This document shows, piece after piece, positions 7,908 through 64,000 of a stretch of DNA of 64,000 nucleotides. Source of the DNA: Caulobacteraceae bacterium (GTDB lineage Bacteria > Pseudomonadota > Alphaproteobacteria > Caulobacterales > Caulobacteraceae); the NCBI GenBank assembly GCA_030446805.1, contig JAUJMO010000002.1:215664-279663 (forward strand), in the 5' to 3' direction. The translations under genes and the position numbers were made by a program. Position 1 is the first letter of the stretch. Every line of letters starts with the position of its first letter. The notes below the pieces were generated by a model. It had not been told where the DNA came from. It saw only the letters and a list, made by a program, of their open reading frames with translations, and did not search any database.

Positions 7908-8429
7908 TCACACCTCCGGGGGCACCCGCAGCACCTGGCCCGGATAGATCTTGTCCGGGTCCGACAGCATCGGCTTGTTTGCTTCGAAAATCTGCATGTA
8001 TTTGCTGGCTTCGCCGTAGAGCTGCTTGCTGATCTTGCTCAAGGTGTCGCCTGACTGCACCGTATAGAAGCGGGTCTCCTCGGGCGCCGGGGTGCGCGGC
8101 TGGGCCTGGGCCTGGGCGGGCGCGGCGGTCTGCTGCGCCGTCGTGGCGGCCGGCGCCAAGCGAGGCTGCAGCACCTGAATGCTTTCCTGCACCTTCTCCA
8201 CGCCCTTGGTGTTGCCCACGATCAGGATGGCCTTTTCGCGTTCGGCGTTGTTGTCGGCGATCCCGCCGATCTGCACCGTGCCGTCGTTGACGCTGAGCTG
8301 CAGATTCTGCAGCGTCACGCCCTTGCCCAGCAGCGCCTTCTTCAGATCGTCGGCGCTGGGATCGTCGCCCCCGGTCACGGCGTTGCGAATGCTCTCGCCA
8401 AGGTTCCGCGTGAAGTTGAACAATCCCAT
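7908..8429 (-). CDS. lysM: BON and LysM domain protein (Kbp/LysM type)
   Basis: A 173-residue protein with the order seen in E. coli YgaU/Kbp. A short N-terminus MGLFNFTRNLGESI is followed by a BON domain (about 40-90, LSVNDGTVQIGGIADNNAERE). An Ala/Pro/Gln-rich linker leads to a C-terminal LysM domain starting FYTVQSGDTLSKISKQLYG. Kbp binds K+ and helps under osmotic stress; LysM binds peptidoglycan or N-acetylglucosamine polymers. There is no signal peptide, as in E. coli Kbp. It is divergent from the NAD-dependent epimerase gene, with about 50 bp between starts. The domain calls are firm; the potassium role is by homology only. Confidence 0.88.
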   Translation of the reverse strand: MGLFNFTRNLGESIRNAVTGGDDPSADDLKKALLGKGVTLQNLQLSVNDGTVQIGGIADNNAEREKAILIVGNTKGVEKVQESIQVLQPRLAPAATTAQQTAAPAQAQAQPRTPAPEETRFYTVQSGDTLSKISKQLYGEASKYMQIFEANKPMLSDPDKIYPGQVLRVPPEV

Positions 8430-59009: not shown

Positions 59010-60188
59010 TCACGTTCGAGACTCGCCACGCGCGATCCGGAGCACGATCCAGCCCAGCACCCCCGCCAGGAGCGAACCGCCCAGCACTCCGATCTTCACG
59101 GCGTCTTGGAGTTCGGGGCCGGTGAAGGCCAGCAAGCCGATGAACAGGCTCATGGTGAAGCCGATGCCGCAGAGCAGAGCTACGCCGTAGAGCTGGAGCC
59201 AACTCGCGTTGGCGGGTAGGTCGGCCAAACCGGCCTTGATGGCCAACCAGGAGAAGCCGAACACGCCGACCTGCTTGCCGAAGAAGAGGCCAGCCGCCAC
59301 CCCGAGGGGCACAGGGCCCAGCACCCCCGGGAGGTCGGCGCCGGCCAGCGAGACTCCGGCGTTGGCGAAGCCGAAGACCGGGACGACGAGGAAGGCGACC
59401 CAAGGTGCGAGACCATGCTCCAAGCGGTGGAGCGGCGACTCGGTGGACTCAGGGCGGGCGGGCGTGGCTCGAAGCGGGATCGTCAGGGCCAGGATCACGC
59501 CGGCCAAGGTGGCGTGGACGCCCGATTGCAGGAAGAAGAGCCACAGCGCCGCACCAAGCACGAGGTAGGGCCCCAGCCGCGTGACCCGCAGCCGATTGAG
59601 GGCGAGCAGGCCGCCGAGGATGAGGGCGGCCGCTCCCAACGCCCACCAGGACACCTCGGCCGTGTAAAAGAAGGCGATGATAACCACGGCGCCCAGGTCA
59701 TCGATGATGGCGAGAGCCGCCAGGAACACCTTCAGCGAGGCGGGCACGCGCGAGCCCAGGAGAGAGATCACTCCCAGAGCAAAGGCGATATCGGTCGCAG
59801 CGGGTATGGCCCAGCCCCGCATGGCGATGGGGTCGTCCAGATTGAAAGCGAGGTAGATGAGGGCCGGGGCTATCATCCCGCCCGCGGCGGCGATCCCCGG
59901 CAGGGCGCGGCGCGACCAAGTGGAGAGCTGGCCGTCCAGCATCTCCCGTTTGATCTCCAGACCCACGAAAAGGAAAAAGACGGCCATCAGACCGTCGTTG
60001 ATCCAGTGCAACAGGTCCAAGCCCGCCAACGGTTGATGAAGGGCGGCGAAGTAGGGGCCAGCCAGGGGGGAGTTGGCGACGAAGAGCGCCAGTGCGGCGG
60101 CGGCCATGAGCACGAGCCCGCCGGCGGACTCGCTGTCGATGAACTCCCGCAAAGCGGAGCGGGGGCGTGTCGCGTCGCTTGGCTTCAA
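59010..60188 (-). CDS. nhaA: Na+/H+ antiporter NhaA, copy 1
   Basis: A 392-residue NhaA that exports Na+ in exchange for protons. The ion-binding motifs are [16 protein letters not shown] (Asp133 region) and [16 protein letters not shown] (Asp163/164). Other family blocks are [24 protein letters not shown] and [19 protein letters not shown] start with AGGAGAAGG is selected by the 4-bp overlap with the upstream nuclease-fold-like gene (TTGA). A second NhaA gene of the same class lies 3 kb upstream. Two copies may widen the pH or salt range. Confidence 0.93.
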
Positions 60189-60714
60189 GGCGCCTTCTCC
60201 TGGCCAGACCAGTCGCCCTCTTGGCCCGGCGACTGGGACGGCGCCAAGCCGGCGGCGTCGCGGATGCGATGATGCAGTTGCGGAGCGTGCGCAGTGGAGG
60301 TGTCGACAGGGCCGCACCAGTTCCACGCGTCAGGGGTGGAAGCAACCAAGCCCTTCTCGATCAGTCGGCGGGAGAGCGACCGCCCGTTCACGAAAATCCG
60401 GACACGGTCAGGGGGATCGTCCTCGGCTCTCGCGATCTCGACTTGCTCCTGCACCGACACGGCGAGGCGTCGCGCGCTTCCCTGGCCAGGAGCGCCTCGG
60501 CCCAGCAATCCGCCTCGGCCAGTCGCTCCAGGGACCAGCCTAAACGGCTGCGAATGGATCTGCATCCGTCCGCAGTAGGCGTGATCTCCCCGCCGAAGCG
60601 GCCGCGACCCGGTCCCTCCTCGGGAGTGCAAGGCGAGGGTCCGTCCAAACGCCCGCGAGAAGATCGAGCTGCGCTTTCGATCACCTGGCGCGGATAGGAG
60701 GCTGCTGACCTCAT
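60185..60714 (-). pseudogene. SNase-fold-like gene, frameshifted copy
   Basis: Two overlapping frames together resemble the intact gene at 62052-62570. The first frame starts with ATG (overlapping the methyltransferase stop as ATGA) and reaches CWAEALLAREA, then goes off. The second frame resumes with [49 protein letters not shown]. The matching text in the intact copy is CWAEALLAREAMEVLRAE, then ILPAGDDPSRARVLVHGRDLSRLLLEQGLAAR and GWDWCGP. One missing base near 60470-60477 explains the split. Its stop overlaps the nhaA start. Sequence error or real decay are both possible. Confidence 0.65.
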
Positions 60715-61472
60715 CTGCGCCGGGGGGCTTCGGCCGAACCATGTCGCGCAACACAGACCTGGTTCCGACTCGTTTTGCCGAAGGGCCGACGTTCGAAGTC
60801 GCCGAACCGGTCGACCAATCGCATCCCGGCCGCGGCAAGGACCTCCGGCAACTCCGAAGGGAAGGTCTGGCGCAAGCGAAGCGGCTCCAAGTGATGCGTG
60901 ACGCCGGTCGGGTCCTCAACACGCCAGCGAGCCTCCATGACCTGCCGCTCGGGATCGTAAGACGCGCGTTCATGAATGCGGACCCCCTCGGGCGTCGAGT
61001 GCGCCCGACGAAATCTCTCGGCTGAGGGGCGGGTCAGCCGCTTGAGGTTTGGGTTGACGATGTCGAAGGCGAGCGAGCCCCAGGGCTCCAGGTGCCGACG
61101 GGTCGCGCGCAGGCAGCCGACGAGCGCGTCGGCGGTGATCATGTGCGCGAGCGAATTGCAGCTAACAATGATGAGGTCGTAGCGCCGGCCCAGGTCGAAG
61201 CTCGCCATATCGGCCTGAATCCATTCGATGGCGACATCGGCGGCTTCAGCCTTGCACCGTGCGGCCGTCAGCATCGTTGCCGAGGAGTCCAGGCCGGTCA
61301 CCTTGTGGCCGTCTTGGGCCAGGGGCACGGTCAATCGTCCCGTGCCGCAGGCCATTTCGAGGACGGAGCCTCCCGATTGGGCGGCCAGCCCGCGATAGAA
61401 TGGATCGCAGGGACCTGGCGGGACCACGCGGTCGTAGATCGTCGGAAGATCGTAAAGAGCTTGGGTTTGCAT
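60711..61472 (-). CDS. Class I SAM-dependent methyltransferase
   Basis: A 253-residue methyltransferase. Motif I is VLEMACGTGRLTVPLAQ, then VTGLDSSATMLTAARCKAE (motif II) and IEWIQADMASFDLGRRYDLIIVSCNSLAHM. The C-terminal half has the beta-sheet typical of Methyltransf_25 proteins (VRIHERASYDPERQVMEARWRVEDPTG). The substrate is unknown. Its stop overlaps the SNase-fold-like gene start. It is separated by 100 bp from the XRE-like gene. Confidence 0.86.
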   Translation of the reverse strand: MQTQALYDLPTIYDRVVPPGPCDPFYRGLAAQSGGSVLEMACGTGRLTVPLAQDGHKVTGLDSSATMLTAARCKAEAADVAIEWIQADMASFDLGRRYDLIIVSCNSLAHMITADALVGCLRATRRHLEPWGSLAFDIVNPNLKRLTRPSAERFRRAHSTPEGVRIHERASYDPERQVMEARWRVEDPTGVTHHLEPLRLRQTFPSELPEVLAAAGMRLVDRFGDFERRPFGKTSRNQVCVARHGSAEAPRRR

Positions 61473-61573
61473 CGGGACTTCAGTTCGAACCTGACCAAGC
61501 GGACCACCTCTTGCACATCCAGAGCCGGCTCAAGCCTTTTTCGAGAGCGTCTGGAATCGGGCCGCACCGCGGG

Positions 61574-61765
61574 TCAGCCTTGGCTTGCGGCTTCGAGGTG
61601 GACGGGGGAGGGGGAGGACGGTCTCGGCAGCTCCGCGTTTCGGAAGGCCCGCCGGATAGCGATCAGAGTCTCTTCGCGAGGTCGTCGAAGACCCTGCTCG
61701 AATGCGAGCACGGTGAGCACGGAGATTCCGATCGCTCTCTTCGCCGCCCGATTCTGCAGCTTCAA
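61574..61765 (-). CDS. Short XRE-like helix-turn-helix protein, probably truncated
   Basis: A 63-codon frame whose TTG start overlaps the preceding stop as TTGA. It reads KLQNRAAKRAIGISVLTVLAFEQGLRRPREETLIAIRRAF, which aligns with the latter half of alphaproteobacterial XRE domains (AAAAGVGVxTVRQFEAGxRxPRRATLxxIRRALE). The first two helices are missing, so DNA binding is unlikely unless another start is used. It could be a truncated antitoxin-like relic. The low-complexity tail is short. Confidence 0.45.
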   Translation of the reverse strand: MKLQNRAAKRAIGISVLTVLAFEQGLRRPREETLIAIRRAFRNAELPRPSSPSPVHLEAASQG

Positions 61766-62052
61766 GGGGCGACCGCCCCGGACTTGGCGAGGCGCCGTCT
61801 CAAGGCATAGCCGCCCGCCGGCAGAAGAAAGCCTGGCGCGAGAACCAGGAAGCGAACCAAGGTGTATTCCAGACGCGTCGCGGCTGCGAAATCGAGCAGC
61901 CAGTCTTCTGTGCGCTGATCCAGCCTCAGCCAGTCCCGGCTGAGCGCGCCTAGAACAAAAAGAGCAACGCAGCCGAAGACTCAGACGGCCCCTGCGAGCT
62001 GGAGCCCTTTGGCGACCTTCAATCTTCCGTCTCCCGGAGAACTGGACGACAT
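61762..62052 (-). pseudogene. Small two-helix membrane protein gene with one in-frame TGA
   Basis: A 96-codon frame that overlaps the upstream SNase-like stop (TGATG) and the downstream XRE-like start (TTGA). It reads MSSSSPGDGRLKVAKGLQL, AGAV, TGA, then VFGCVALFVLGALSRDWLRL, DQRTEDWLLDFAAATRLEYT, LVRFLVLAPGFLLPAGGYAL and RRRLAKSGAVAP. The TGA sits inside the first membrane helix, exactly where Trp (TGG) would be natural. No start codon follows it closely, so re-initiation is unlikely. Coding character is intact on both sides. Best explanations are a recent nonsense mutation or a sequencing error; read-through is possible but unproven. Confidence 0.6.
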
Positions 62053-62570
62053 CACCCTTCTTCTCCGGCTCGGTCGACGCCTGCCGCGCTCTCGGGACGA
62101 GCTTCCTGCGGAACCGACGGCGCCGCGTAACCCAACCGAGGCGCCCCCGCCGCGTCGAGGACCATTGGACCGCACCAGTCCCAGCCACCCATGGTCCGAG
62201 CCGCCAGACCTTGCTCCAAGAGCAACCTCGAAAGATCGCGGCCATGCACGAGCACCCTGGCTCGACTCGGGTCATCGCCGGCGGGCAGGATCTCCAAATC
62301 GCGGACATAGTCCGTCTCGGCTCGAAGCACCTCCATGGCCTCGCGCGCCAGCAGAGCCTCGGCCCAACAACGCGCCCGAGGCGCCGCGTCAGGTACGCTG
62401 ATGTCGGCCAGTCGAACCGTGCGTTCACCGACGCGCAGGGTCGCCGGGCTGAGGACTTCGACCTCTTCGGACTGGCCTGCATTCTCCGAAAAAGGCGAGC
62501 CGCGGCGGCCGCATCCGGTGAGCATGGTCGAGAGGATAAGCAGGCTTGCCGCAGCAGCGCGTGGCGTCAT
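62052..62570 (-). CDS. Lipoprotein with staphylococcal nuclease-like fold
   Basis: A 172-residue lipoprotein: signal MTPRAAAASLLILSTMLTGC. The rest follows the SNase pattern (VEVLSPATLRVGERTVRLADISVPD; CWAEALLAREAMEVLRAE; DDPSRARVLVHGRDLSRLLLEQGLA), ending WDWCGP. Family catalytic residues are not all recognisable: the usual VDGDT is SPAT here, so nuclease activity is doubtful. It shares CWAEALLAREA and WCGP with the broken copy near 60.4 kb. ATG overlaps the preceding membrane-protein stop. It probably acts outside the inner membrane. Confidence 0.72.
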   Translation of the reverse strand: MTPRAAAASLLILSTMLTGCGRRGSPFSENAGQSEEVEVLSPATLRVGERTVRLADISVPDAAPRARCWAEALLAREAMEVLRAETDYVRDLEILPAGDDPSRARVLVHGRDLSRLLLEQGLAARTMGGWDWCGPMVLDAAGAPRLGYAAPSVPQEARPESAAGVDRAGEEG

Positions 62571-63049
62571 GACGAGGCCGTCGGGCTGGAGGGCGATCGC
62601 GAGCGAATCCGGCGTCGCTCCGCCCCAGACTTGAACAACACGGCCTGCAACAGAGCGGCAGGGAGAGCGGCCACGATGAGCTGGTAAACAACGAGGAACG
62701 CCGCCATGGCAGCCACCAGCATCCCTGAGACCCGGGCCGGGAGCCCGAAATCCTCAGCGAGGAATCGAAACAGGAGTGTCAGGCTGACCGCGTACACCAG
62801 GGCCGCCCAAAGAAGGATCGTCAACAAGGCGTGCCCACGCGACGCTGGACGACGCCACGCCAGCCAGACGCTGGACAATCCCACCCAGCAGGCTCCCACC
62901 CAAAAGTGCTCCCACCAGTCGCTGCGGGCTTCCTCGAGACCTTCGAGCAGCCACTCCACCACGAGCCAAAGACCCGTCAGCAGGCCCAGGGCGGCCGTCG
63001 CGGCCGCAGCGAGCCAGAGCGGCGCAGGGCTCCTCATCGGCAGCTGCAT
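62567..63049 (-). CDS. Hypothetical four-helix membrane protein
   Basis: A 160-residue protein with helices at about 12-34, 47-65, 75-98 and 108-135 (for example PLWLAAAATAALGLLTGLWLVVEWLLEGLEEAR and GMLVAAMAAFLVVYQLIVAALPAALL). The N-terminus MQLPMRSPAPL and a basic tail (GAERRRIRSRS) are notable. The start lies 1 bp from the nhaA stop and the stop overlaps the lipoprotein start, so it belongs to the NhaA operon. No family is recognised. Confidence 0.7.
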   Translation of the reverse strand: MQLPMRSPAPLWLAAAATAALGLLTGLWLVVEWLLEGLEEARSDWWEHFWVGACWVGLSSVWLAWRRPASRGHALLTILLWAALVYAVSLTLLFRFLAEDFGLPARVSGMLVAAMAAFLVVYQLIVAALPAALLQAVLFKSGAERRRIRSRSPSSPTASS

Positions 63050-63050
63050 C

Positions 63051-64000
<950 letters not shown>

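Follow-up and report, generated by a model that had tools for sequence, protein, structure and literature searches.

The window analysed here is a stretch of 64,000 nucleotides from a Caulobacteraceae bacterium. This study is concerned with orf96, a short minus-strand frame near its end that encodes a putative two-helix membrane protein and is interrupted by an in-frame TGA at codon 24. Read from its ATG, orf96 consists of 23 sense codons, the internal TGA, 72 further sense codons and a final TGA at 61762-61764 (-), for 97 codons including the terminal stop; the internal TGA is the only such stop in 96 codons. The ATG is preceded by a purine-rich stretch, and its A is also the last base of the TGA that ends the lipoprotein-like gene upstream (TGATG, an overlap of one base). 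Downstream of the internal TGA there is no in-frame ATG or GTG at which translation could restart, only two late TTGs and some CTGs, and because an ATG or GTG is lacking the last 72 codons should go untranslated. We hold with moderate confidence that orf96 is a nonsense-inactivated, lineage-restricted two-helix inner-membrane gene, disabled by an ordinary mutation. The initial annotation of this DNA had described 23 codons, a TGA and 72 clean codons behind an overlapping ATG, and had placed the TGA inside a membrane helix. The minus-strand reading of 61762-62052 agrees with that layout, and the most hydrophobic window of the protein, residues 19-37, does include the TGA.

The hydrophobic segment that runs across the TGA is the principal evidence that orf96 was a gene. 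With the TGA scored as 0, residues 19-37 form the best 19-residue window, with a mean Kyte-Doolittle value of 2.43, and no window clear of the TGA exceeds 1.48. Among 100,000 dinucleotide shuffles, a helix of this strength spanning the TGA was reached by 29 in the same frame, by 108 in any of the six frames and by 66 in a frame with at most one stop. These figures supersede those of smaller runs, which had given 1 (same frame) and 2 (any frame) per 10,000 and, at a slightly stricter threshold, 1 and 6 per 5000. The any-frame rate came out higher than the 2 per 10,000 of the smaller run, and the odds given to each interpretation were left unchanged. Within the window itself, 2035 stop triplets occur in six frames, and the TGA of orf96 is the only one spanned at a value of at least 2.0; the runner-up is a TAG at 8017 (+), spanned at 1.91. 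The fraction of wrong frames of window genes that reached the orf96 helix value was printed as 0.0000. Because such a helix across the TGA is unlikely to arise by chance, the frame is probably a real, recently real or former gene. A second, weaker hydrophobic segment suggests a two-helix protein, and a single-sequence structure model of the read-through product is all-helical at low confidence (mean predicted local distance difference test score, pLDDT, 62.3; predicted template modelling score 0.33).

Base composition and codon use were also considered. The open frame alone is weak evidence, since 72 stop-free codons are expected at the local base composition with P about 0.23. A codon log-odds score was trained on 34 long open reading frames of the window, which were picked by length and G+C pattern, with those ending beyond 59000 excluded from the codon counts. 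By this score orf96 has 0.085 bits per codon, compared with 0.096 for the lipoprotein-like gene, 0.145 for the methyltransferase and 0.32-0.37 for nhaA; of gene segments of the same length, 11% have a score no higher than that of orf96. Its codon use is only moderately gene-like and is ambiguous taken alone. The G+C content by codon position after the TGA is 0.72/0.50/0.71, which resembles that of the neighbouring genes. Thus the coding signal that a nonsense pseudogene should retain in frame beyond its stop was found in the helix and in the position-specific G+C, the codon score being ambiguous.

The position of orf96 relative to its upstream neighbours points in the same direction. It is probably, to judge from the spacing of the genes, the fourth and last member of a tightly packed run that is led by nhaA and continues with a membrane protein gene and the lipoprotein-like gene (Table 1). 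The membrane protein gene has no Pfam or NCBIfam family over the cut-off. Its matches are all weak and lie in a single other genus of the family (13 of 390 family genomes besides its own, E values 5.5e-7 to 8.8e-4); this set, like the other genome sets mentioned below, counts the source genome itself, and the sets overlap. Two of the loci with such matches were opened with 1.5 kb on each side and showed different neighbours and no match to the lipoprotein-like gene or orf96, and so no synteny. An alignment search of genome contigs with the lipoprotein-like gene found five loci, in records of Caulobacter, Phenylobacterium, Caulobacteraceae and Caulobacterales, and on these records the window would belong to Caulobacteraceae.

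The window contains two copies of nhaA, at 59010-60326 and 63051-64000 (-), which share 73% protein identity and lie about 4 kb from each other, measured end to end. A third nhaA match, at 50%, lies outside the window (G000:C4:164472-165371). Also outside the window, about 3 kb upstream of nhaA copy 1, are two adjacent open reading frames (L025:9173-10119) which, recognised by eye, are presumably an IS630-type transposase.

The downstream side of orf96 differs in character, as it appears to be a decayed cassette. A paralogous cassette on contig C1 of the source genome (L026:3307-5226) carries a fuller helix-turn-helix gene, a methyltransferase gene, another helix-turn-helix gene and a lipoprotein-like gene. 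The methyltransferase in the window is 73% identical to the contig C1 copy. The DNA similarity of the two cassette copies starts at window position 61723, inside the helix-turn-helix domain (83% over 89 bases), and therefore the front of the helix-turn-helix copy in the window is missing or changed beyond recognition. The protein remnant matches HTH_3 with an E value of 9.8e-5 and 22.8 bits against a cut-off of 23, and the profile is matched only from position 9. At 60263-60714 a helix-turn-helix gene begins and then gives way to the tail of a lipoprotein-like gene; this segment resembles a scar left by a deletion in the cassette of which contig C1 carries the fuller copy. The end of orf96 is about 40 bases from the rearrangement edge. 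The repeats in 60200-63100 are short two-copy families and two short inverted pairs, with no clean duplication around orf96. The initial annotation had reported that the final stop of orf96 overlaps the next start, and had expected coupling to the downstream gene to be affected. The overlap is present, but only with a TTG, from which the truncated helix-turn-helix remnant is read. The expectation about coupling did not hold, as the downstream frame is without the front of its DNA-binding domain. The gene directly after orf96 is not intact, as it would be in a translationally coupled operon with a downstream regulator, and the apparent coupling is best read as an accident of the rearrangement edge.

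Table 1. Features of the orf96 locus, with the evidence for each.
Feature	Position in window	Strand	Evidence
orf96, putative two-helix membrane protein	61762..62052	-	Sequence, helix statistics, low-confidence all-helical model
In-frame TGA, orf96 codon 24	61981..61983	-	Sequence
Hydrophobic segment across the TGA, residues 19-37	61942..61998	-	Hydropathy and shuffle statistics
Second hydrophobic segment, the weaker one (about residues 61-85, Kyte-Doolittle about 1.4-1.5), with arginines and a lysine after it	61798..61872	-	Hydropathy; model helix 64-90 (block pLDDT about 57-63)
nhaA copy 1 (Na+/H+ antiporter), running past the window end	63051..64000	-	One base from its stop to the ATG of the 160-residue gene
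Membrane protein, 160 residues	62567..63049	-	ATGA overlap with the lipoprotein-like gene
Lipoprotein-like gene, stop overlapping the orf96 ATG	62052..62570	-	Front resembles LptM, below cut-off; Caulobacterales relatives
Helix-turn-helix remnant, TTG start only	61574..61765	-	HTH_3 positions 9-48 of 55; paralogue DNA similarity from 61723
Class I methyltransferase	60711..61472	-	Paralogue on contig C1 follows fuller helix-turn-helix gene
Remnant, helix-turn-helix gene start then lipoprotein-like gene rear	60263..60714	-	Comparison with contig C1 cassette

Inactivation by a nonsense mutation would account for this arrangement as follows. A single base substitution would have converted codon 24, in the middle of the first helix, to TGA. 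Ribosomes arriving from the overlapping upstream stop would then release after 23 residues, and orf96 would be inactive or nearly so. It lies on the border of a cassette that has been rearranged and has partly decayed, with a truncated helix-turn-helix gene and a fused remnant, and there its loss would cost little. Several sense codons are one step from TGA, and Trp is one possible ancestor codon here. The initial annotation had considered that Trp would fit at this place, and no homologue was found with which to compare the codon. The change would be either recent or a base-calling error, because there is just one stop in 96 codons. We infer the former translation of orf96, a substitution as the type of change, and its recency. 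The points in favour are the helix through the TGA, the tight junctions, the single stop, the use of TGA as a common stop, the presence of prfB and the decay of the neighbouring genes. The locus also resembles the interrupted coding sequences (nonsense pseudogenes) of other bacteria in that it has a recognisable frame, a single in-frame stop, intact ends and a region with other decayed genes. It differs in that no intact orthologue of orf96 was found, and the label rests on the helix and the gene order. In passages of PMC7918605, in-frame stops are described as tending to last a short evolutionary time.

Several results weigh against inactivation by mutation. First, a single assembly was seen, and a base error is therefore possible. 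Secondly, 16% of wrong-frame segments have codon use scoring at or above that of orf96, as do 26% of the 2598 such segments with at most one stop, and the first 23 codons of orf96 have a negative score (-0.19). Third, searches for orf96 among 60 relatives, 390 family genomes, 398 order genomes, genome contigs, viral contigs, plasmids and phages turned up no credible relative. As they yielded no homologue whose frame is intact, comparison demonstrates neither the gene nor the mutation. Among the 60 relatives, 15 match orf96 at E values up to 1 (its own genome included), and none except its own falls below 0.09. The family genomes gave three matches in addition to its own (E values 0.004-0.007), and the order genomes gave seven (0.001-0.008). 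These weak matches (E values 0.001-0.01) were examined in part rather than row by row. For example, L101 reads as a heme A synthase-like protein and L066 as a major facilitator superfamily transporter-like protein, both named by reading of the sequence; L064 and L065 contain TGA and TAG, L100 contains one TGA and L103 contains two. All were taken as chance or compositional. A scan of genome contigs with short peptide patterns of orf96, which reaches close relatives only, returned 438 stretches, none of which was confirmed as a relative. The one other genome of the same genus (93% complete) has no match to orf96, the lipoprotein-like gene or the 160-residue membrane gene. At the five loci with relatives of the lipoprotein-like gene, no orf96-like frame was found at E values up to 1 within about 3 kb on each side (less for L098). 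NCBIfam and PHROGs gave no match for orf96, and a Pfam PsbI match to residues 22-40 (E value 0.023, below the cut-off) was taken as compositional. Thus orf96 is apparently lineage-specific on these searches. The initial annotation had named the absence of a similar protein elsewhere as a point that would refute its proposal. That absence is literally what was found, but the helix across the TGA still argues for a former gene.

The main rival to a nonsense mutation is that the TGA is a base-calling or assembly error and that an intact gene makes a 96-residue two-helix membrane protein. This is unlikely, though it deserves serious attention. The rest of the frame is intact, with its overlapping ATG, no further stop and a continuous helix. 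Furthermore, passages of PMC1852416 report that, in one deposited genome, sequencing errors accounted for a significant proportion of the interrupted genes. However, direct evidence of an error is lacking here, the source genome (3.04 Mb) is assembled in 6 contigs and is 99.13% complete, and damage at this site fits the neighbouring frames, which are damaged by rearrangement.

It is distinctly less probable that orf96 was never a gene and that what looks like a helix arises by chance from scarred intergenic DNA. The lack of any homologue in the collections searched agrees with this, as do the probability of a 72-codon open frame (0.23) and the ambiguous codon score. Against it are the rarity of a helix across the stop (29 per 100,000 shuffles in the same frame to 108 in any frame), the overlapping start, which closes a run of tight junctions, and the gene-like G+C by position after the TGA.

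A third alternative is that a near-cognate tRNA reads through the TGA at some level, giving a low and perhaps regulated amount of full-length protein. This is very unlikely, and little credence is given to its more specific form, in which the TGA would be a functional low-level read-through site under the standard code that keeps a small membrane partner of the NhaA operon at trace levels. The helix and the frame do continue past the TGA, and in-frame stops with a ratio of nonsynonymous to synonymous substitution (dN/dS) below 1 are reported across bacteria in passages of PMC7918605. The sites with presumed read-through described there are like orf96 in that coding-like sequence continues past the stop; they differ in that orf96 is found in one genome, with no orthologue by which conservation of its TGA could be judged. 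The RNA around and beyond the TGA folds in an unremarkable way (z -0.96), with no unusual hairpin. No Rfam family matched in 60000-63100, and no promoter-like site was found in 61400-62200. Two terminator-like sites occur in that interval, one of them on the same strand inside orf96 (61832-61849); shuffles give 0.7 (standard deviation 1.1) over both strands, and these sites were given no weight.

The decoding components of the genome also speak against read-through and reassignment of UGA. TGA is the commonest stop among the long open reading frames counted in the window, ending 20 of 34, and it ends the five neighbouring genes examined; thus UGA is not left unused as a stop, as it would be after UGA-to-Trp reassignment. 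The source genome has prfB over the cut-off, as do 10 of 14 control genomes. A pattern search for tRNA-Trp allowing at most one mismatch, which would miss a divergent tRNA, hit three places: one tRNA-Trp (CCA), one tRNA-Ser and one without a tRNA; a control pattern gave one hit. In the tRNA-Trp the anticodon is CCA and its stem is of the normal 5-bp form (TCGGT/ACCGA); neither a UCA anticodon nor a 4-bp stem, which reassignment would lead one to expect, was found. Positions 9 and 24 are A and G by our own count, and therefore this tRNA is without the A9C and G24A changes named in passages of PMC13092985, where forms with a 4-bp anticodon stem are described as raising UGA read-through in E. coli. 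The likeness of orf96 to the systems in those passages is that a Trp codon is one possible ancestor of its TGA; the differences are that TGA is here a common stop, prfB is present and tRNA-Trp has the 5-bp form.

The least probable alternative, that the TGA encodes selenocysteine, is all but dismissed, as nothing favours it beyond the codon itself and two matches that pass the gathering score of the tRNA-Sec model, selB is below its cut-off (0 of 1 genome; its best match scores 186.5 bits where 242.25 are required, and 2 of 14 control genomes pass) and no unusual hairpin follows the TGA. That model has 11 matches in the source genome, five of which were typed by ARAGORN: the two above the gathering score are Ser and Leu tRNAs, and the other three are Gly, Tyr and Ser. 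It also matches all 14 control genomes, five of them above the score, and the pair expected in a genome that makes selenoproteins, selB over its cut-off and a tRNA-Sec among the typed matches, was not found. For these reasons, the recoding that had been listed beside nonsense mutation and sequence error in the initial annotation is unsupported by selB, tRNA-Sec, prfB, TGA usage and tRNA-Trp alike; the other two options remain, and nonsense mutation is favoured.

As it stands, orf96 matters little, since it is one interrupted gene for which no relatives are known. It illustrates that genes of this kind may be missed by gene callers, and that small uncharacterised membrane genes are part of the nhaA run. 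Should the TGA prove to be truly read through, orf96 would offer a clean case in which to test regulated read-through under the standard code of a bacterium.
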